Positions 51,978-60,033 of a stretch of 64,000 nt of DNA are shown piece by piece. The DNA is taken from NCBI GenBank assembly GCA_029961745.1, contig CP124680.1, positions 2,666,001 to 2,730,000 on the forward strand, written 5' to 3'. A program made the translations under genes and the position numbers. Position 1 is the first letter of the stretch. Each line of letters starts with the position of its first letter. The DNA comes from Nocardioides sp. L-11A (GTDB lineage Bacteria > Actinomycetota > Actinomycetes > Propionibacteriales > Nocardioidaceae). The notes under the pieces are model-generated. The model was given only the letters and a program-made list of their open reading frames with translations. It made no database searches and was not told where the DNA came from.

Positions 51978-52528
51978 GCGTCCCCGGGCCCGACGGGCTC
52001 GAGCGGCTCTGGACGCCGCACCGGATGGCCTACGTCCGGGGCGAGGCCGAGTCTGCCGAGGAGGCCGCGCACGCCGAGCCGCGTCCGGCCTGCCCGTTCT
52101 GCCGGATCACGCCGGACCCGGCGAGCTCGACCGACGACGAGCTGGTCGTCGTCCGGGGACGCACGGCCTATGTCGTGCTCAACCTCTACCCCTACAACCC
52201 CGGCCACCTGATGGTCCTGCCCTACCGCCACGTCGCCGACTACCTCGACCTCGACGACGAGGAGACCGATGAGGTGACCGCGCTGACCAAGGCCGCGCTG
52301 CGCACCATCCGCGCGGTCGCCCAACCGCATGCCTTCAACGTCGGCCTCAATCTCGGGGGCGCCGCGGGCGGATCGCTGTCGGGCCACCTGCACCAGCACG
52401 TCGTCCCGCGCTGGTCCGGCGATGCCAACTTCATGACCGTCATCGGCGGCACGAAGACCCTCCCGCAGCTGTTGGGCGAGACCCGCAGCCTCCTCGCGGA
52501 CGCCTGGCAGATGGCGCCCGCGACGTGA
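51974..52528 (+). CDS. HIT-family protein (Ap4A phosphorylase-like)
   Basis: A 184-residue nucleotide hydrolase or transferase. The HIT triad is GHLHQHVVPRW (about residues 137-147), and LNLYPYNPGHLMVLPYRHV is the other family block. CPFC near residue 40 is half of a zinc site present in this subgroup. The actinobacterial members next to pgsA act on diadenosine polyphosphates (Ap4A phosphorylase). It belongs to the thrS-HIT-pgsA cluster that is conserved across actinobacteria. Confidence 0.92.
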   Translation: MSVPGPDGLERLWTPHRMAYVRGEAESAEEAAHAEPRPACPFCRITPDPASSTDDELVVVRGRTAYVVLNLYPYNPGHLMVLPYRHVADYLDLDDEETDEVTALTKAALRTIRAVAQPHAFNVGLNLGGAAGGSLSGHLHQHVVPRWSGDANFMTVIGGTKTLPQLLGETRSLLADAWQMAPAT

Positions 52529-52550
52529 CCATCGAGTAGGTTCCTGACCC

Positions 52551-53189
52551 GTGTTGGATCGCTTCAAGGAGTTCTGGGCCGGGACCGTGCTGCACCCCGT
52601 GGTGCGGCTGTTCATCCGGCTGGGCATCAGCCCCGACGCGGTCACGCTCGTCGGCACGCTCGGCGTCTGCGCCGGGGCACTGATCTTCTTCCCGCAGGGC
52701 GAGCTGCTGATCGGCGTCCTGTTCATCACCGCCTTCGTGTTCAGCGACCTGATCGACGGCCGGATGGCCCGCGAGACCGGCCGGGTCTCGAAGTTCGGGG
52801 CCTTCTGGGACTCCACCCTCGACCGGATCGGCGACGGTGCGATCTTCGGCGGACTCGCCCTCTACTTCGCCGGCACCGGCAAGGACCAGGGCGACAGCTA
52901 CCTCTACCTGTGCGTCACCCTGTGGTGCCTGGTGATGGGCTCGGTGACGTCCTACGCCCGGGCCCGCGCCGAGTCCCTCGGCATGGACGCCAAGGGCGGC
53001 CTCGCGGAGCGGGCCGACCGGCTCGTCTCGATCCTCGTCATGACCGGTCTCGGGGCCCTCTTCGACCTGCCGATCCTGATGTACGTCACCCTGTGGGCGC
53101 TGGCCCTCGCGAGCACCTACACGGTGGTCTTCCGGGTGCTCAAGGTACGCCGTCAGGCACTCGCGTCGGAGGGTGAGACTCCGGCGTAG
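52551..53189 (+). CDS. pgsA: CDP-alcohol phosphatidyltransferase, phosphatidylinositol-phosphate synthase type
   Basis: A 212-residue integral membrane enzyme. The catalytic signature D-x2-DG-x2-AR-x8-G-x3-D-x3-D is seen in [13 protein letters not shown] and [12 protein letters not shown], and about six hydrophobic helices follow. By position it corresponds to the mycobacterial gene for phosphatidylinositol phosphate synthase. In mycobacteria an acyltransferase and PimA follow it, but here pdxS follows directly. TAGGTT lies 8 nt before the GTG. Confidence 0.88.
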
Positions 53190-53220
53190 CGGGCCCGCCC
53201 GGGGTCGTAGACTCGCTGTC

Positions 53221-54114
53221 ATGAGCGAGCAGCAGGAGCACGGCACCACCCGGGTCAAGCGCGGCATGGCCGAGATGCTCAAGGGTGGCGTCATCATGGA
53301 CGTGGTGACCCCGGAACAGGCCAAGATCGCCGAGGATGCCGGCGCGGTGGCCGTGATGGCGCTGGAGCGGGTCCCGGCCGACATCCGCGCCCAGGGCGGC
53401 GTGTCGCGGATGAGTGACCCGGACATGATCGACGGGATCATCGCGGCGGTGTCGATCCCGGTGATGGCCAAGGCCCGGATCGGTCACTTCGCCGAGGCCC
53501 AGGTGCTGCAGTCGCTGGGTGTGGACTACATCGACGAGTCGGAGGTGCTGACCCCGGCCGACTACGCCAACCACATCGACAAGTGGGCGTTCACGGTGCC
53601 GTTCGTGTGTGGCGCGACCAACCTCGGCGAGGCGCTGCGGCGGATCACCGAGGGTGCGGCGATGATCCGGTCCAAGGGCGAGGCGGGCACGGGTGACGTG
53701 TCGAACGCGGTGACCCACATGCGCACCATCCGGGCCGAGATCCGCCGGTTGGGGTCGCTGGCCGACGACGAGCTGTACGTGGCCGCGAAGGAGCTGCAGG
53801 CGCCGTACGACCTGGTGGTCGAGGTGGCCCGCACCGGCAAGCTGCCGGTGGTGCTGTTCACCGCGGGTGGGATCGCGACTCCGGCGGATGCGGCGATGAT
53901 GATGCAGCTGGGTGCCGAGGGCGTGTTCGTCGGCTCGGGGATCTTCAAGTCGGGCAACCCGGCGCAGCGGGCCGAGGCGATCGTGAAGGCGACGACGTTC
54001 TACGACGACCCCGACGTGGTCGCGAAGGTGTCGCGGGGCCTGGGCGAGGCGATGGTCGGCATCAATGTCGAGGAGCTGGCCCAGCCGCACCGCCTCTCCG
54101 AGCGCGGCTGGTGA
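53221..54114 (+). CDS. pdxS: pyridoxal 5'-phosphate synthase subunit PdxS
   Basis: The synthase barrel that makes PLP from ribose 5-phosphate, glyceraldehyde 3-phosphate and ammonia channelled from PdxT. The 297-residue protein has the family opening [17 protein letters not shown], the catalytic Lys regions [12 protein letters not shown] and SKGEAGTGD, and [28 protein letters not shown] at 53208-53213 lies 7 nt before the ATG. Normally pdxT follows at once; here they are separated by 3.9 kb of SipW-operon genes and a strong terminator, so stoichiometry depends on separate promoters. Confidence 0.98.
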
Positions 54115-54151
54115 CCGCGGCGGGGTGACCCGCCGGACCTGAACGAACCAC

Positions 54152-54189
54152 CCGAGGCCGTGGCGCTGCGTGCAGCGCCACGGCCTCGG
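54152..54189 (+). terminator. terminator after pdxS
   Basis: CCGAGGCCGTGGCGCTG (54152-54168) pairs perfectly with 54173-54189 around a CGTG loop, a 17-bp stem, followed by TTAAATCT. This is the strongest terminator in the window and isolates pdxS from the SipW operon. Confidence 0.93.
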
Positions 54190-54196
54190 TTAAATC

Positions 54197-54214
54197 TCGG
54201 GACATTGGTCCCGA
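54197..54214. promoter_or_regulatory. inverted repeat upstream of the SipW operon
   Basis: TCGGGAC and GTCCCGA flank ATTG (54197-54214), a 7-bp perfect dyad directly after the pdxS terminator and 120 bp upstream of the first SipW-operon gene. The GAC-N4-GTC core resembles sites of LuxR/NarL-type response regulators; the regulator is not known. Confidence 0.5.
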
Positions 54215-54333
54215 TTCCGGTCACCCGCCGTGCCGGCCTGTGCTGTCCTTCGTTGTGGATCGCGAGGCGCTCCCTGCGTCGCGACCATGACAACCAGACC
54301 TGGGGACAACAGGGCATGGGGACTGGAGAACAA

Positions 54334-54918
54334 ATGAAGAAGACGACGAAGGGCGCGCTCGCGGCAGGCACCGCGGCCGTCCTGCTCATGGGTGGTGCGG
54401 GCACCCTGGCGTACTGGACCGACAACGCGACCGTGGCCGGCACCGGGGTCACCACGGGTCACCTCAAGCTGATCAACGCGGACTGCGGCGACGGCTGGCT
54501 GGTCGACGCCGGTACGCCGGACGAGTTCCCGCTCGTCGGGGCGACCCGCCTGGTCCCCGGCGACACGTTCAGCCAGACCTGCACCTACGAGGTCGACGCC
54601 GTGGGCGACCACATCCTGGCCGAGGTCACGATCGACGAGGGCACGGGCTTCACCGGCAACGCCGATCTGCTCGAGGAGCTCGACCTCAGCTCGTCGAGCA
54701 TCGAGGTCAACAACGTGGCCTATGCCGGCGGCGCTGTCGCGGTGAGCGATGGCCAGACGATCGAGGTGACCTTCGTGGCGGCCTGGCCGTTCGACGACCA
54801 GGTCGACGACCCCGCACAGGGCGCCGGCGCGATCGACAACGGCGCGAACGTCAGCGGTGGCGTCACGGCCGCTCTCGCCGCCGTCGGAGTCACGCTGACC
54901 CAGGTCGACTTCCACTGA
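54334..54918 (+). CDS. SipW-dependent exported protein 1 (alternate-type signal peptide)
   Basis: A 194-residue exported protein. The signal peptide runs MKKTTKGALAAG, a short hydrophobic core, then LAYWTDNATVAG; Ala26-Tyr-Trp-Thr-Asp is the motif of substrates of SipW-type peptidases (TasA/camelysin-like). The mature part is a beta-rich domain with Cys in NADCGDG and SQTCTYEV, acidic throughout, and lacks Lys-rich or hydrophobic patches. GGAGAAC precedes the ATG. It is the first gene of the five-gene operon; such proteins form fibres or coat subunits in other bacteria, but its role here is unknown. Confidence 0.88.
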   Translation: MKKTTKGALAAGTAAVLLMGGAGTLAYWTDNATVAGTGVTTGHLKLINADCGDGWLVDAGTPDEFPLVGATRLVPGDTFSQTCTYEVDAVGDHILAEVTIDEGTGFTGNADLLEELDLSSSSIEVNNVAYAGGAVAVSDGQTIEVTFVAAWPFDDQVDDPAQGAGAIDNGANVSGGVTAALAAVGVTLTQVDFH

Positions 54919-55715
54919 CCTCGGTCGCCGTCCGGCGTGGGCGCACTGCCTTCGGGTGGATCGGTCAGGTCGTCGCATGGCTGGTGATCATCGGCGTGGT
55001 GGTGATCCTCGCGGCCGCGGTCGTCGTACCGCGGCTCGCGGGGGCCACCCCCTACACCGTCCTCACCGGGTCGATGCAGCCGGACTACCCGCCGGGCACC
55101 CTGGTGGTCGTCAAGCCGGCGGCCGTCGATGAGATCGGCACCGGCGACGTGATCACCTACCAGCGGGAGTCGGGCAGGGCCACGGTCGTCACCCACCGGG
55201 TCGTCGCCGTGGCCACCCGGTCCGACGGCGAAGTGGTCCTCACGACCAAGGGCGACGCCAACGACGTGGTCGACCCGGTGCCGGTCAGGGAGGTCCAGGT
55301 CAAGGGACGCCTCTGGTACGCGGTGCCCTATCTCGGACATGTCAACAGTGCGCTGAACGGCGGACAGCGGCAGGTCGCCGTCCTGGTGGTCTCGACCGGG
55401 CTGGTCGGCTATGCGGCGTTCATGTTCGTCGGGGCCCTCCGGGACCGGCGACGCGGGGGGCCGGCGGCACCCGCGGACGACATCGACATCGACACGGCCG
55501 CGCAGATCGACCACACCCCACAACTGGATACGGCAGCGACGCCCGCACCGGTGGCCGCCGCCGCCCCACGGGATCTCCCTGTCGCGGTGCTCGCGGCGAC
55601 GGCGACGGTCCTGGGGCTGCTGCTCCTGGCCCATCGCCGGACCCGCCGTTCAGGTCCGAACCGCCCACGACACCCGAAGCACCCCAACCGACGTACGAAG
55701 GAAGCCCGATCATGA
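54915..55715 (+). CDS. sipW: SipW/ER-type signal peptidase I, copy 1
   Basis: A 266-residue membrane peptidase that would process the AYWTD-type signal peptides. It has the catalytic Ser in TGSMQPDYPPGTLVVV (Ser53) and a His in VVTHRVVAV (His94) that replaces the usual Lys, as in ER-type and SipW enzymes, then KGDANDVVD. A second helix (VAVLVVSTGLVGYAAFMFVG) and a third (LPVAVLAATATVLGLLLLAH) follow. No ATG, GTG or TTG covers the conserved RRGRTAFGW-to-first-helix stretch; the best fit is a CTG at 54915 overlapping the previous stop (CTGA). The first standard start is GTG at 54984, which would cut into the first helix. Confidence 0.85.
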   Translation: MTSVAVRRGRTAFGWIGQVVAWLVIIGVVVILAAAVVVPRLAGATPYTVLTGSMQPDYPPGTLVVVKPAAVDEIGTGDVITYQRESGRATVVTHRVVAVATRSDGEVVLTTKGDANDVVDPVPVREVQVKGRLWYAVPYLGHVNSALNGGQRQVAVLVVSTGLVGYAAFMFVGALRDRRRGGPAAPADDIDIDTAAQIDHTPQLDTAATPAPVAAAAPRDLPVAVLAATATVLGLLLLAHRRTRRSGPNRPRHPKHPNRRTKEARS

Positions 55716-56368
55716 TCCGCCGTCCCGCCTCGCTCGTGGCCGCAGCCGTGCTGGCTGTCGGCATCGCGGCCGCGCCGGCGCAGGCCGCCGACGAGATCGG
55801 CCTCAGCACGGACGGCGTCACCTGGGTTCCCCAACTGGCCGCGCCGCTCTACCCGGCCGGCTTCCGCTGGGTGCCGGGCGACGTGGAGGAGCGCTCCTTC
55901 CGGGTCCGCAACGGTGGCCCGTCGGCCGGCGAGGTCACCGTCGACGTGGTCACCGCCGATCCGGCGGCGCTGCTCGCCTCATCCGACTTCCACCTGGAGG
56001 CCCGGGTCGCTGACGGCCCCTGGACCGAGGTCCTGGACGGCACGACGCGGCTGCAGCCGGCCGTGCTCGACGTGCCCCGGGGCGCGGACACGACGGTGTC
56101 GGTCCGAGGCTCGTTCCGACCGGAGGCGACGGGGCACCTGGACCGGACGGCGTCCTTCGAGGTCCGCTTGACGATGTCCGAGGACGGCGACATCGCCGGT
56201 GAGCAGGACGAGGGTGAGGTCGGCGGTCAGGACGACGGAGTGCTGCCGGACGCCGGCTCCGCCGTCGGCGCCGGCCTGCTCTGGTTGGCCGCCGGTCTCG
56301 TCGGCACCGGTCTCGCGCTCGTCCGACCCCGACGCGCCCGTCGCAAGGAGGTGGCTGCCCATGACTAG
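55712..56368 (+). CDS. secreted protein with C-terminal LPDAG-type sorting signal
   Basis: A 218-residue exported protein. It has an N-terminal signal peptide (LVAAAVLAVGIAAAPAQAA), a beta-rich ectodomain (SFRVRNGGPSAGEVTVDVV), an acidic linker, then LPDAG at residues 178-182, a hydrophobic helix and the basic tail RPRRARRK. This is the layout of a sortase substrate, with Ala replacing the Thr of LPxTG. It could be anchored to peptidoglycan by an unusual sortase or simply remain a membrane protein. The ATG overlaps the SipW stop (ATGA). Confidence 0.82.
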   Translation: MIRRPASLVAAAVLAVGIAAAPAQAADEIGLSTDGVTWVPQLAAPLYPAGFRWVPGDVEERSFRVRNGGPSAGEVTVDVVTADPAALLASSDFHLEARVADGPWTEVLDGTTRLQPAVLDVPRGADTTVSVRGSFRPEATGHLDRTASFEVRLTMSEDGDIAGEQDEGEVGGQDDGVLPDAGSAVGAGLLWLAAGLVGTGLALVRPRRARRKEVAAHD

Positions 56369-56960
56369 GCATGTGCCACGACACCGCCTGGCACGTCCCG
56401 GCTGGTTCGGACGCGGCCGGACCCGCGCCCTCCTCTCCGCGGGTCTGCTGCTCGGCACCGGTGCGGTGGCAACCTCGGCCTATTGGACCGATGCCGCGGT
56501 GGCGCCGGGAGTCACGGTCCGCAGCGGCGAGCTCCACATCGACCTCGAGGACAACCAGCAGACCAGGCCGGAGACCATCACGGACTGGCCCGACCTGAAC
56601 CTGACCGGCATGGCCGACGGCGACATCAGGGTGGCGCTGATGAAGGTCTCGAACAACAGCATCGGCGACGCGACGCTCTCGTACGGCCTCGAGGCCGCCG
56701 CGACGAACCCCCTGGGTGCGGCGTTGCGGGTCACCGTCCGCCAAGGTGGCTCGATCAACGCCGGCGCCTGCGTCGGCGGGAGCCTGGTCGGGGGGACGGG
56801 CGTCCCGCTCAACGGATTCGACGAGGTCGTCAGCGCCCACCTCGGGCCGGGGCAGTCACACGACCTCTGCATCCAGGTACGGCTGCCGTCGCCGTCGGGC
56901 GTCCCCGCGAACGCGACCTCAGCCGTGACGTTCACCTTCCCCGCCAGGCAGGAGCAGTGA
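56361..56960 (+). CDS. SipW-dependent exported protein 2
   Basis: A 199-residue exported protein. A basic N-terminal region (RHVPRHRLARPGWFGRGRTR), a hydrophobic core (LLSAGLLLGTGAVATSA) and Ala40-Tyr-Trp-Thr-Asp form the SipW-type signal. The mature domain has a beta-rich pattern with two Cys (GACVGG and DLCIQV) that may pair. AAGGAGGTG is 8 nt before the ATG, the best ribosome-binding site of the operon, and the start overlaps the previous gene by 8 bp. Confidence 0.87.
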   Translation: MTRHVPRHRLARPGWFGRGRTRALLSAGLLLGTGAVATSAYWTDAAVAPGVTVRSGELHIDLEDNQQTRPETITDWPDLNLTGMADGDIRVALMKVSNNSIGDATLSYGLEAAATNPLGAALRVTVRQGGSINAGACVGGSLVGGTGVPLNGFDEVVSAHLGPGQSHDLCIQVRLPSPSGVPANATSAVTFTFPARQEQ

Positions 56961-57958
56961 TGTCCGCCGCGAAGCGGGTCGCCCGCGAGACCCTCCTGTG
57001 GGTCGGGGGAGTGCTGGGCACCCTGTGCCTGCTCTCCCTGCTCGCCGGCTGGCTCTTCCAGGTCACGCCGCTGGTCTTCTCGTCCGGGTCGATGAGCCCG
57101 GCCTACGCCGCGGGCGCGCTCGGCATCGCCCGCGAGGTCCCCGCCTCCGACCTGGCCGTCGGCGATGTCGTGAGCGTCCTCGACGCCGACGGCAGGCGGG
57201 TCACCCACCGGATCACCGGCCTCGACGCCGCGGGCGACGCCACCGTCCTCACGCTGCGAGGTGACGCGAACGACGTGGCCGACGCACAGCCGTATGTGGT
57301 CCAGGAGGCGGACCGCGTCGTCCTCGGCGTCCCGTACGCCGGCTACGTGCTCAACGCCGCGGCCAGCCCGTTCGGCCTCGCCGCCGCCGCGCTGCTCGTG
57401 CTGGCCGTGCTGCTGATCGGCTTCGGCCGGGGACACCGCCTGGTGCCGGTCGGCCTGGCCTCGACGGTGGCGCTCGGCGCCGGCCTGGGCGCGAGCGGCG
57501 TCGCGCCCTGGGCCTTCACCTCGGCGTACTGGACCGACTCGGCCGTGGCGACCGTCAAGGCGACGACCCCGGCACTGCAGAGTCACGCGCAGCCCGGTTG
57601 CGCCCAGAGCGGCCCCGGAGGGATCGCCCGGCTGACCTGGACCGACGTCAACGACCTGTACGAGTACACCTGGAGTGTGCGCGAGCTCAACGGCACCCCG
57701 GCGCCGGTCGGCACCGCCAATCCGCCGCCGCAGCTCAGTGGCGTCCTCGGCGGGAGCACGACACAGGGACAGCAGGTGCAGCTGGACATCCCGACGACCA
57801 GGGGCCAGGGGCAGGTCCACAAGAAGAACTTCGTCGTGTGGGTGACGACCCGCCTGATCTCGGACAACAGTGTCACTGGACCGACGACCGTCACACCGAT
57901 CCACCGCGAGGAGGGCCAGGGCGGCAACATCTGGGTCGCGTACTGCGGTCACGTGTAG
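56960..57958 (+). CDS. signal peptidase fused to an AYWTD-type exported domain
   Basis: A 332-residue protein joining two parts. Residues 1-155 form a SipW/ER-type signal peptidase: first helix (TLLWVGGVLGTLCLLSLLAGW), Ser44 in SSGSMSPAY, His83 in VTHRITG, RGDANDVAD, then a second helix (AALLVLAVLLIGFG). Residues about 158-332 start with another hydrophobic segment (VGLASTVALGAGLGASG) that leads into Ala189-Tyr-Trp-Thr-Asp, matching the signal of the two exported proteins upstream, and then a beta-rich domain with Cys (QPGCAQS and VAYCGHV). The protein may therefore be its own substrate and release the C-terminal domain. It ends the operon. Confidence 0.83.
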   Translation: MSAAKRVARETLLWVGGVLGTLCLLSLLAGWLFQVTPLVFSSGSMSPAYAAGALGIAREVPASDLAVGDVVSVLDADGRRVTHRITGLDAAGDATVLTLRGDANDVADAQPYVVQEADRVVLGVPYAGYVLNAAASPFGLAAAALLVLAVLLIGFGRGHRLVPVGLASTVALGAGLGASGVAPWAFTSAYWTDSAVATVKATTPALQSHAQPGCAQSGPGGIARLTWTDVNDLYEYTWSVRELNGTPAPVGTANPPPQLSGVLGGSTTQGQQVQLDIPTTRGQGQVHKKNFVVWVTTRLISDNSVTGPTTVTPIHREEGQGGNIWVAYCGHV

Positions 57959-58008
57959 GCCTGGACCGCTGACAACAGAGGGCGGCGGCGGCCCTAGGAT
58001 CGGTGCCT

Positions 58009-58584
58009 GTGCCTGCCATCGGAGTCTTCGCCCTCCAGGGCGACGTCCGCGAACACCTGCAGACCCTGACCGCCCTCGGTGCGGAGGCGTTCGCGGTCCG
58101 CCGCCCGGCCGAGCTCGACCGCTGTGACGGCCTGGTGCTGCCCGGAGGTGAGTCGACCACGATGGCCAAGCTGGCGCGCACCTTCGAGCTGCTCGAGCCA
58201 CTGCGGGCACGGGTGGGGGACGGCATGCCGACCTTCGGGACCTGCGCCGGGATGATCCTGCTGGCCGACCGGATCGAGGGCGGCACCGCCGACCAGGAGA
58301 CGATCGGCGGCCTCGACGTCACGGTGCGCCGCAACGCCTTCGGACGTCAGGTGGACTCGTTCGAGGCGGACCTGCCGTTCGCGGGACTGGCCGATCCGGT
58401 GCACGCCGTGTTCATCCGCGCACCGTGGGTCGAGCGGACCGGATCAGGGGTCGAGGTGCTGGCCGAGGCGCAGGGACATCCGGTCGCCGTACGCCAGGGA
58501 CACCTGATGGCGACGTCCTTCCATCCCGAGGTCGACGGCGACGGACGGGTGCACCGGATCTTCCTGGATCTGGTGCAGCAGTAG
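58009..58584 (+). CDS. pdxT: pyridoxal 5'-phosphate synthase glutaminase subunit PdxT
   Basis: The glutaminase that supplies ammonia to PdxS. The protein is 191 residues from this start; Cys79 in [11 protein letters not shown] is the nucleophile and FHPEV holds the His-Glu pair. LPGGESTT is the oxyanion region. The GTG at 58009 gives the family N-terminus [12 protein letters not shown], and TAGGAT lies 8 nt before it; a GTG two codons earlier is the alternative. Separation from pdxS by a terminator and the SipW operon is unusual. Confidence 0.97.
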
Positions 58585-58619
58585 ACTTCTCCGCTGTTGT
58601 CGGGATGTAAGGAGTCCTC

Positions 58620-59387
58620 ATGTCTGGCCACTCCAAGTGGGCGACCACCAAGCACAAGAAGGCCGTGATCGACGCGAAGCGCGGCAAGCTCTTCGCGAAG
58701 CTCATCAAGAACATCGAGATCGCCGCCAAGATGGGCGGTCCCGACCCCTCCGGCAACCCGACGCTCTTCGACGCCATCCAGAAGGCGAAGAAGCAGTCGG
58801 TGCCCAACAAGAACATCGACTCCGCGGTCAAGCGCGGCGGCGGTCTCGAGGGCGGCGGCGTCGACTACGAGACGATCATGTACGAGGTCTACGGCCCGCA
58901 GGGCGTCGCGCTCCTCGTCGAGTGCCTCACCGACAACCGCAACCGTGCGGCCATGGAGGTGCGCACCGCGGTGACCCGCAACGGCGGCACCATGGCCGAC
59001 CCGGGCTCCGTCTCCCGCCTGTTCAACCGCAAGGGCGTCGTCGTCGTCGCCAAGGCCCAGGAGGGCAAGGACGTCTCCGAGGACGACATCCTCGAGGCCA
59101 CGCTCGACGCGGGCGCCGAGGAGGTCAACGACCTGGGCGAGGCCTTCGAGGTCCAGTCCGAGGCCACCGACGTCGTCGCCGTGCGGACGGCGCTGCAGGA
59201 GGCGGGGATCGACTACGAGTCGGCCGAGGTGCAGTTCGTCGCCTCGATGGACATCCCGGTCGCCGACCCGGCCGCGGCCGGCAAGGTGTTCAAGCTCGTC
59301 GACGCCGTCGACGATCTCGACGACGTGCAGAACGTCTTCTCGAACGCCGACATCCCCGACGACGTCCTGGACCAGATCGAGGAGTGA
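58620..59387 (+). CDS. yebC: YebC/PmpR-family protein
   Basis: A 255-residue protein with [20 protein letters not shown], the conserved N-terminus, and the usual three-domain pattern ([44 protein letters not shown]). Members act as transcription regulators or as ribosome-associated factors that relieve stalling. AAGGAG precedes the ATG. It is placed just before ruvC, as in most actinobacteria. Confidence 0.96.
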
Positions 59388-59444
59388 GCGCCGCTCCCGG
59401 GCGTGTCTCGCCGGCTTTCCCACGGAAAGCGCCTACCTTGGTCT

Positions 59445-59460
59445 CCGAACACATGTTCGG
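59445..59460 (+). promoter_or_regulatory. LexA box upstream of ruvC
   Basis: CCGAACACATGTTCGG is a LexA-type palindrome (flanked by T and A, extending the symmetry), 15 bp before the ruvC start. It differs from the consensus TCGAAC-N4-GTTCGA at the two outermost bases. It indicates SOS control of ruvCAB. Confidence 0.8.
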
Positions 59461-59475
59461 ACGGAAGGTGATGGC

Positions 59476-60033
59476 GTGCGCGTGCTCGGGATCGACCCGG
59501 GGCTGACCCGCTGCGGGCTCGGCGTGGTCGAGGGCTCGATCGGCCGGCCGTTGGCGTTGGTCGACGTCGGTGTGGTCCGCACGCCCTCGGCGTGGTCGGT
59601 GCCCGAGCGGCTGGTGTTCATCGAGAAGGGGATCGAGGCCCGCCTCGACGAGCACGCGCCCGACGCCGTCGCGATCGAGCGGATCTTCGCCCGCTCCGAC
59701 GTGAGCACGATCATGGGCACCGCTCAGGCCGCCGGGATCGCCATGGTCTGCGCGGCGCGCCGCGGCCTGCCGGTCGCCCTGCACACCCCGAGCGAGGTGA
59801 AGGCGGCGGTGTCCGGCAACGGTCGCGCCGACAAGTCCCAGGTCGGCCTGATGGTCACCCGGATCCTGCGCCTGGACGCGATGCCGAAGCCGGCCGATGC
59901 CGCCGACGCCCTCGCGCTGGCGATCACCCACATCTGGCGCGGGGGCAGCCAGGCCCGGATCGACGCCGCCGTCGCCGCGGCCCGCCCGACCCGCTCCCGC
60001 ATCCCCACCCGCACCTCTGGAGGAGTCCGATGA
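59476..60033 (+). CDS. ruvC: Holliday junction resolvase RuvC
   Basis: The endonuclease that cuts Holliday junctions held by RuvAB. In 185 residues, the catalytic Asp7 is in [12 protein letters not shown], Glu in [13 protein letters not shown], and the last acids in [15 protein letters not shown]. The GTG at 59476 follows GGAAGG. It overlaps ruvA by four bases (ATGA). Confidence 0.97.

Follow-up and report, generated by a model that had tools for sequence, protein, structure and literature searches.

SipW-type signal peptidases are best placed in context by the tapA-sipW-tasA operon of Bacillus subtilis, in which such a peptidase stands beside TasA-type substrates. TasA subunits join through an N-terminal strand, the first of which is donated by TapA, itself already complete, as far as the available text of the two reports goes (PMC9674648, PMC10151520). 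Here we describe a comparable five-gene cassette, g1 to g5, found between pdxS and pdxT in a 64,000-nucleotide stretch of the Nocardioides sp. L-11A genome (contig CP124680.1, positions 2,666,001 to 2,730,000, forward strand), hereafter the window. The cassette shares the pairing of SipW-type peptidase and TasA-type substrates with the B. subtilis operon, and the complete immunoglobulin-like fold of TapA with its donated N-terminus, again from the available text (PMC9674648, PMC10151520), is perhaps matched by a fibronectin-type FN3-like domain at the end of g5. It differs in having two peptidases, one of them with a cargo domain, a related protein of LPXTG type and an actinobacterial TIGR04089 protein, and in failing the SipW equivalog model.

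Two other systems are close. The sipW-tasA/calY region of Bacillus cereus likewise holds two TasA-like proteins and a cognate SipW, with no TapA orthologue, but the available portion of its description names neither an LPXTG-type protein nor a cargo-bearing peptidase (PMC4292775). In the sipW-bsaABCRSD operon of Clostridium perfringens, export and polymerisation of the filament protein require SipW; unlike in the cassette, the operon holds regulators, BsaA was seen without LPXTG and the flanking srtB is dispensable, according to the part of the report at hand (PMC7395162). The NCBIfam entries TIGR04089, TIGR04088 and TIGR02228 name parts of the cassette, not the five genes as a whole. SipA of the Streptococcus pyogenes sortase pili reportedly has no SipW-type cargo, and, compared with those pili, the cassette itself is without a sortase gene. 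In a limited, open-licence literature search, no study of SipW/TasA sets in actinobacteria came to notice. The parts are known and the arrangement is apparently undescribed: SipW/TasA-type secretion with a probable sortase-type anchor and a cargo-bearing peptidase. This cassette is widespread in one actinobacterial family, the Nocardioidaceae, and tied to the pdxS-pdxT interval. Its five same-strand open reading frames span 54334-57958, each where the preliminary description had placed it:

54334..54918, + strand: g1, SipW-type substrate of the TIGR04089 family, with AYWTD at 54409
54915..55715, + strand: g2, SipW-like S26 signal peptidase 1, with a probable CTG start at 54915 and its first usual start, GTG, at 54984
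55712..56368, + strand: g3, profile-related to g4 and g1, with an ordinary signal peptide and a C-terminal LPDAG-hydrophobic-basic tail
56243..56257, + strand: LPDAG, a sortase motif variant near the end of g3
56361..56960, + strand: g4, SipW-type substrate, TasA-like, with AYWTD at 56478 and two invariant cysteines
56960..57958, + strand: g5, whole gene
56960..57424, + strand: N-terminal part of g5, SipW-like S26 signal peptidase 2, about residues 1-155
57524..57955, + strand: C-terminal part of g5, with AYWTD at residue 189 and, after it, an FN3-like domain that has two invariant cysteines
53221..54114, + strand: pdxS, upstream neighbour, whose query matches at least 145 of 149 family genomes
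58003..58584, + strand: pdxT, downstream neighbour, 44 bp after g5

To place the cassette in its family, pdxS and pdxT were searched in 149 genomes, where pdxS had matches in at least 145 and pdxT in at least 147, a few of the latter weak. Among the matches listed, 136 pairs (in 136 genomes) share one contig and strand, with spacings below 100 bp in 17, of 100-1499 bp in 56 and of at least 1500 bp in 63, up to a maximum of 11.8 kb. We examined 81 loci, made up of 80 regions from relatives and the window; they cover 62 of the 63 wide gaps (1500 bp or more; all but G010) and 17 of the 73 short gaps (below 1500 bp). The order g1-P-g3-S-P, in which P is a peptidase and S the g4 substrate, was present as 41 complete sets at 37 of these loci, window included, four of them carrying tandem pairs; given 41 copies, this order exceeds chance. 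The preliminary description had proposed searching for the gene order in relatives and had counted lack of co-occurrence against itself, and the set does co-occur. Complete sets occupy 36 of the 62 wide gaps examined (window included), while 12 hold a partial set (substrate plus peptidase), three hold other parts and 11 hold none; the cassette is absent from all 17 short gaps examined out of 73. Two further fetched loci, which have no pair on one contig, both carry sets, one of them complete, and cassette-type genes lie inside at least 48 of the 136 family pairs. The family hidden Markov models behind these assignments were iterated, those of g1 and g4 cross-match, and locus labels rest on the best score and on thresholds that we set.

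A scan with the g1 alignment yielded 79 named loci, mostly from Nocardioides, Aeromicrobium and Pimelobacter, culturable soil genera of which the last two were checked as Nocardioidaceae. As lower bounds, since some contigs and flanks end early, 48 of the 63 loci labelled Nocardioidaceae (three by order only) had both pdxS and pdxT nearby, three pdxS only, three pdxT only and nine neither; among the 16 loci outside the family or order label, the counts were one with both, three with pdxT and 12 with neither. Two loci outside the labelled family also have pdxS and pdxT on either side of the set, and pdxT follows it in Antribacter gilvus and two Promicromonospora (Promicromonosporaceae, Micrococcales).

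Both window peptidases pass TIGR02228, the model for SipW-like S26 signal peptidases (cut-off 51.85 bits), with 91.4 bits for g2 and 60.6 for g5, and both contain the paired motifs SMxP and THR(V/I), whose serine and histidine we take to be the catalytic residues. Across 28 aligned g5 copies, S44, T82, H83 and R84 are invariant. These matches and motifs support two claims of the preliminary description, that g2 and g5 are Ser/His peptidases and that they belong to a dedicated SipW-type processing system. Neither passes the Bacillus SipW equivalog NF046067 (82.7 and 60.5 bits against a cut-off of 190), and in Pfam the peptidase S26 match of g2 is the sole match above cut-off among the five genes. 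Among the matches listed, a third TIGR02228 peptidase gene (L097, 75.6 bits) lies outside the operon at genome positions 5364507-5364926; the frame next to it is weakly g4-like.

The substrates carry the corresponding signals. With 116.1 bits, g1 passes TIGR04089 (alternate-type signal peptide proteins, cut-off 60), and g4 falls below it with 15.1; both exceed the cut-off of 19 for the SipW-type signal model TIGR04088 (27 and 24.9 bits, respectively), and in the complete 5.68-Mb genome these are the only two TIGR04088 matches at E of 0.001 or less. No TIGR04088 match was found in g5. Translation places the first residue of AYWTD at positions 26, 40 and 189 of g1, g4 and g5, exactly as first read. 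An AYWTD-like segment recurs in 39 of 41 copies each of g1 and g4, and in one of 41 of g3. A strict search recovers it in 25 of 41 copies of g5, and a 28-copy alignment retains its alanine and the aromatic residue two positions on in 28/28 and the aspartate in 26/28.

Profile comparison shows g1, g3 and g4 to be mutually related, the match between g3 and g4 beginning directly after the AYWTD-like segment. Against the PDB, TasA ranks first for g4, weakly (E 0.027), and a second-look alignment again gives TasA as the nearest solved fold, a modest resemblance; three matches were obtained for g3 (E 0.42-0.72) and none for g1. Pfam returned no TasA/camelysin match in the cassette proteins. For the exported g5 domain the likeness is to FN3 rather than to TasA. 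Structures unrelated to TasA or camelysin had been named at the outset as evidence against a fibre-type system; g4, with its modest TasA likeness, is in keeping with the original expectation for the exported domains, and the g5 domain departs from it.

The remaining member, g3, matches nothing in Pfam or NCBIfam, and those of its homologues with a name go under "hypothetical" or "LPXTG anchor" protein. Within the last 90 residues, 32 of 41 copies have LPXTG, two have LPDAG (window included), five have other near forms and two have none, and in a 36-copy alignment the L and G of the motif are invariant and P and T are kept in at least 90%. All 19 near homologues that were read, out of 50 matches besides the window's own, have LPXTG as well. 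Because most g3 copies and near homologues carry LPXTG, sortase anchoring is likely across the family, which upholds the earlier proposal of an LPDAG-bearing possible sortase substrate, its motif located at 56243. The genome has eight sortase matches above the PF04203 cut-off, none of them within the window. In a class-wide search of 296 genomes, many of the g3 matches listed were to the sorting-signal end alone; long matches outside the family (E 7e-13 or better) occur in at least six genomes, with one of six between pdxS and pdxT in the fetched region.

We propose a self-contained cassette whose products export, trim and anchor the proteins of a TasA-like fibre or coat, perhaps used in biofilm formation or adhesion, a proposal that we place just on the probable side. 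The proteins g1 and g4 would be exported through Sec with SipW-type signal peptides, trimmed at the AYWTD region by the two cognate S26 peptidases and assembled as the main TasA-like chain subunits. Exported by its ordinary signal peptide, g3 would be the same kind of sandwich without the SipW-type N-terminal segment; it would serve as the anchor, joined to the wall in the family by a sortase encoded elsewhere, and probably as the base that receives the first subunit's N-terminal strand. The fifth protein is predicted to be a second SipW peptidase with AYWTD-type export cargo at its own C-terminus, and its cleavage would free an FN3-like domain that starts with the same segment; this domain could plausibly serve as starter or tip in the manner of TapA. 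If true, pairing TasA-type subunits with a sortase-type anchor would bring together two principles of assembly, strand exchange and covalent attachment to the wall; a signal peptidase with its own export cargo would be an unusual design, open to direct testing. In the window itself, g3, with LPDAG, falls outside the strict pattern of LPXTG, hydrophobic stretch and basic tail; the T-to-A change may weaken sortase anchoring. The sister protein, 78% identical and one of the 19 near homologues read, carries LPETG.

The same genes could instead form a SipW-type secretion set for monomeric, non-polymerising surface proteins (adhesins, or binding or signalling proteins), with g3 a separate wall protein. 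CalY of B. cereus, TasA-like and beside SipW, gives only thin, sparse fibrils, at least in the available text of that report (PMC4292775); moreover, the resemblance to TasA is modest, and a shared sandwich does not show function. Against this, 41 copies retain three mutually related proteins alongside two peptidases and an anchor motif, which fits a multi-subunit assembly better than it fits unrelated monomers, and we regard monomeric secretion as possible but doubtful. The fibre or coat also admits a more specific form, an actinobacterial donor-strand fibre of TasA type in which a sortase-anchored g3 sandwich, as the base, offers an acceptor groove and no donor strand, and an FN3-like starter or tip is released by g5 cleaving itself or its twin. 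We advance this form tentatively and think it rather unlikely in all its detail.

The preliminary description had also seen the cassette as an insertion between two normally adjacent genes, and had suggested comparing their spacing with and without it. Adjacency as the norm is not supported in this family, only 17 of 136 pairs being less than 100 bp apart. An island, mobile or acquired horizontally, that had recently split a pdxST pair would account for an interval of 3.9 kb in the window against nearly none in some relatives, for the patchy presence (11 of the 62 wide gaps examined lack it, as does every one of the 17 examined among 73 short ones) and for other cargo in the same interval elsewhere, including a second SipW-type set with a GTLSSWT motif. 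Yet the same order and place recur in Nocardioides, Aeromicrobium and Pimelobacter, the GC (guanine plus cytosine) fraction of the cassette (0.70-0.73) is like that of its flanks (0.69-0.75), and no tRNA lies at the site; these composition and tRNA results were the mobile-insertion signs sought, integrase and transposase families not having been searched for in the flanks. In 35 of the 37 loci, protein distances of g1 to g5 also track those of pdxS plus pdxT, with r of 0.34-0.40 matched by none or one of 2000 permutations, though below the 0.62 between pdxS and pdxT, so that some exchange or loss is likely. On recurrence and co-inheritance we reject a recent insertion, and we hold the island to be improbable. 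Because the distances track those of pdxS plus pdxT and the composition matches the flanks, the data fit a long-resident cassette with some exchange or loss rather than a recent arrival.

The boundaries of the cassette bear on its expression, beginning with one element upstream:

54152..54189, + strand: hairpin after pdxS, a 17-bp perfect stem with a 4-nt loop, then TTAAATCT; may mark where the pdxS transcript ends

Perfect stems of at least 8 bp were counted within 250 bases downstream of pdxS: 12 of 37 loci have one, compared with 27 among 740 letter-shuffled copies. None of the 36 g5-pdxT gaps tested has such a stem in its first 150 bases. At 25 of 37 loci, no more than 76 bp separate the last cassette gene from pdxT, counted to its first aligned residue. 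Because stems follow pdxS at some loci, none were seen before pdxT and the gaps there are mostly short, the cassette may form its own transcription unit running into pdxT. The window's hairpin was not among the terminator-like elements of a consensus scan; on the + strand of 53900-58300 no sigma-70 promoter or canonical terminator was found, in a scan little informative for a GC-rich host, and Rfam gave no match at gathering score in 52000-60000. The g5-pdxT gaps, mostly short and stem-free in all 36 tested, might also reflect a functional link to vitamin B6, with the cassette modulating pdxT or sharing its regulation. Consistent with this, three Promicromonosporaceae loci have cassette genes upstream of pdxT, the flank fetched there containing no pdxS; pdxT may thus be read from a cassette promoter. 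However, the cassette genes match no family with a role in B6 and no cassette was seen between most family pdxS-pdxT pairs, and we consider such a link highly improbable.

According to the preliminary description, all five genes overlap by 1-8 bp. This is correct for g2/g3 (4 bp), g3/g4 (8 bp) and g4/g5 (1 bp), and conditional for g1/g2, whose 4-bp overlap exists only with a CTG start at 54915. No ATG, GTG or TTG precedes GTG 54984 in the g2 frame, and starting there would leave 29 residues before SMQP. In relatives, 36 of 40 g2 copies have SMxP, and 44-58 residues precede it in 33 of the 36 with script-chosen starts; the residues encoded ahead of GTG 54984 resemble the N-termini of these proteins. 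CTG 54915 is therefore the probable start, as judged from sequence. A sequencing error was considered and is unlikely, because the sister strain Nocardioides sp. LHD-245 has an identical CTG context. Under a rule preferring ATG among script-chosen ATG, GTG or TTG starts, g1 and g2 do not overlap in 40 of 41 copies, a count of starts that exist rather than of starts in use. Overlapping starts are available for g2/g3 and g3/g4 in 41/41 copies each and for g4/g5 in 35/41, the g3 to g5 starts having been chosen nearest to a 4-bp overlap, a rule that favours overlap.

The comparison across families suggests that the fusion of peptidase and cargo in g5 may have arisen, or been kept, mainly in Nocardioidaceae. 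At three Promicromonosporaceae loci (L132, L144 and L164), the frame adjacent to pdxT on its upstream side matches the g5 C-domain model, with no peptidase detected in it; these frames possibly represent a pre-fusion state. A similar frame is present at L091, from another family, where the set lies between pdxS and pdxT.

The pdxS-pdxT interval seems to be a favoured home for SipW sets. A second, different SipW-type set, marked by the motif GTL(S/A)(S/T)W(T/S/N) and by an S26 peptidase of lower score, was seen in this interval at L032, L046, L047, L050, L056-L060 and L062, and frames with the motif occur at 10 of the 12 loci having a peptidase of 90-150 bits. At L057 and L059, genes between pdxS and the cassette resemble by eye what we presume to be a ferredoxin-type reductase and a di-iron oxygenase.
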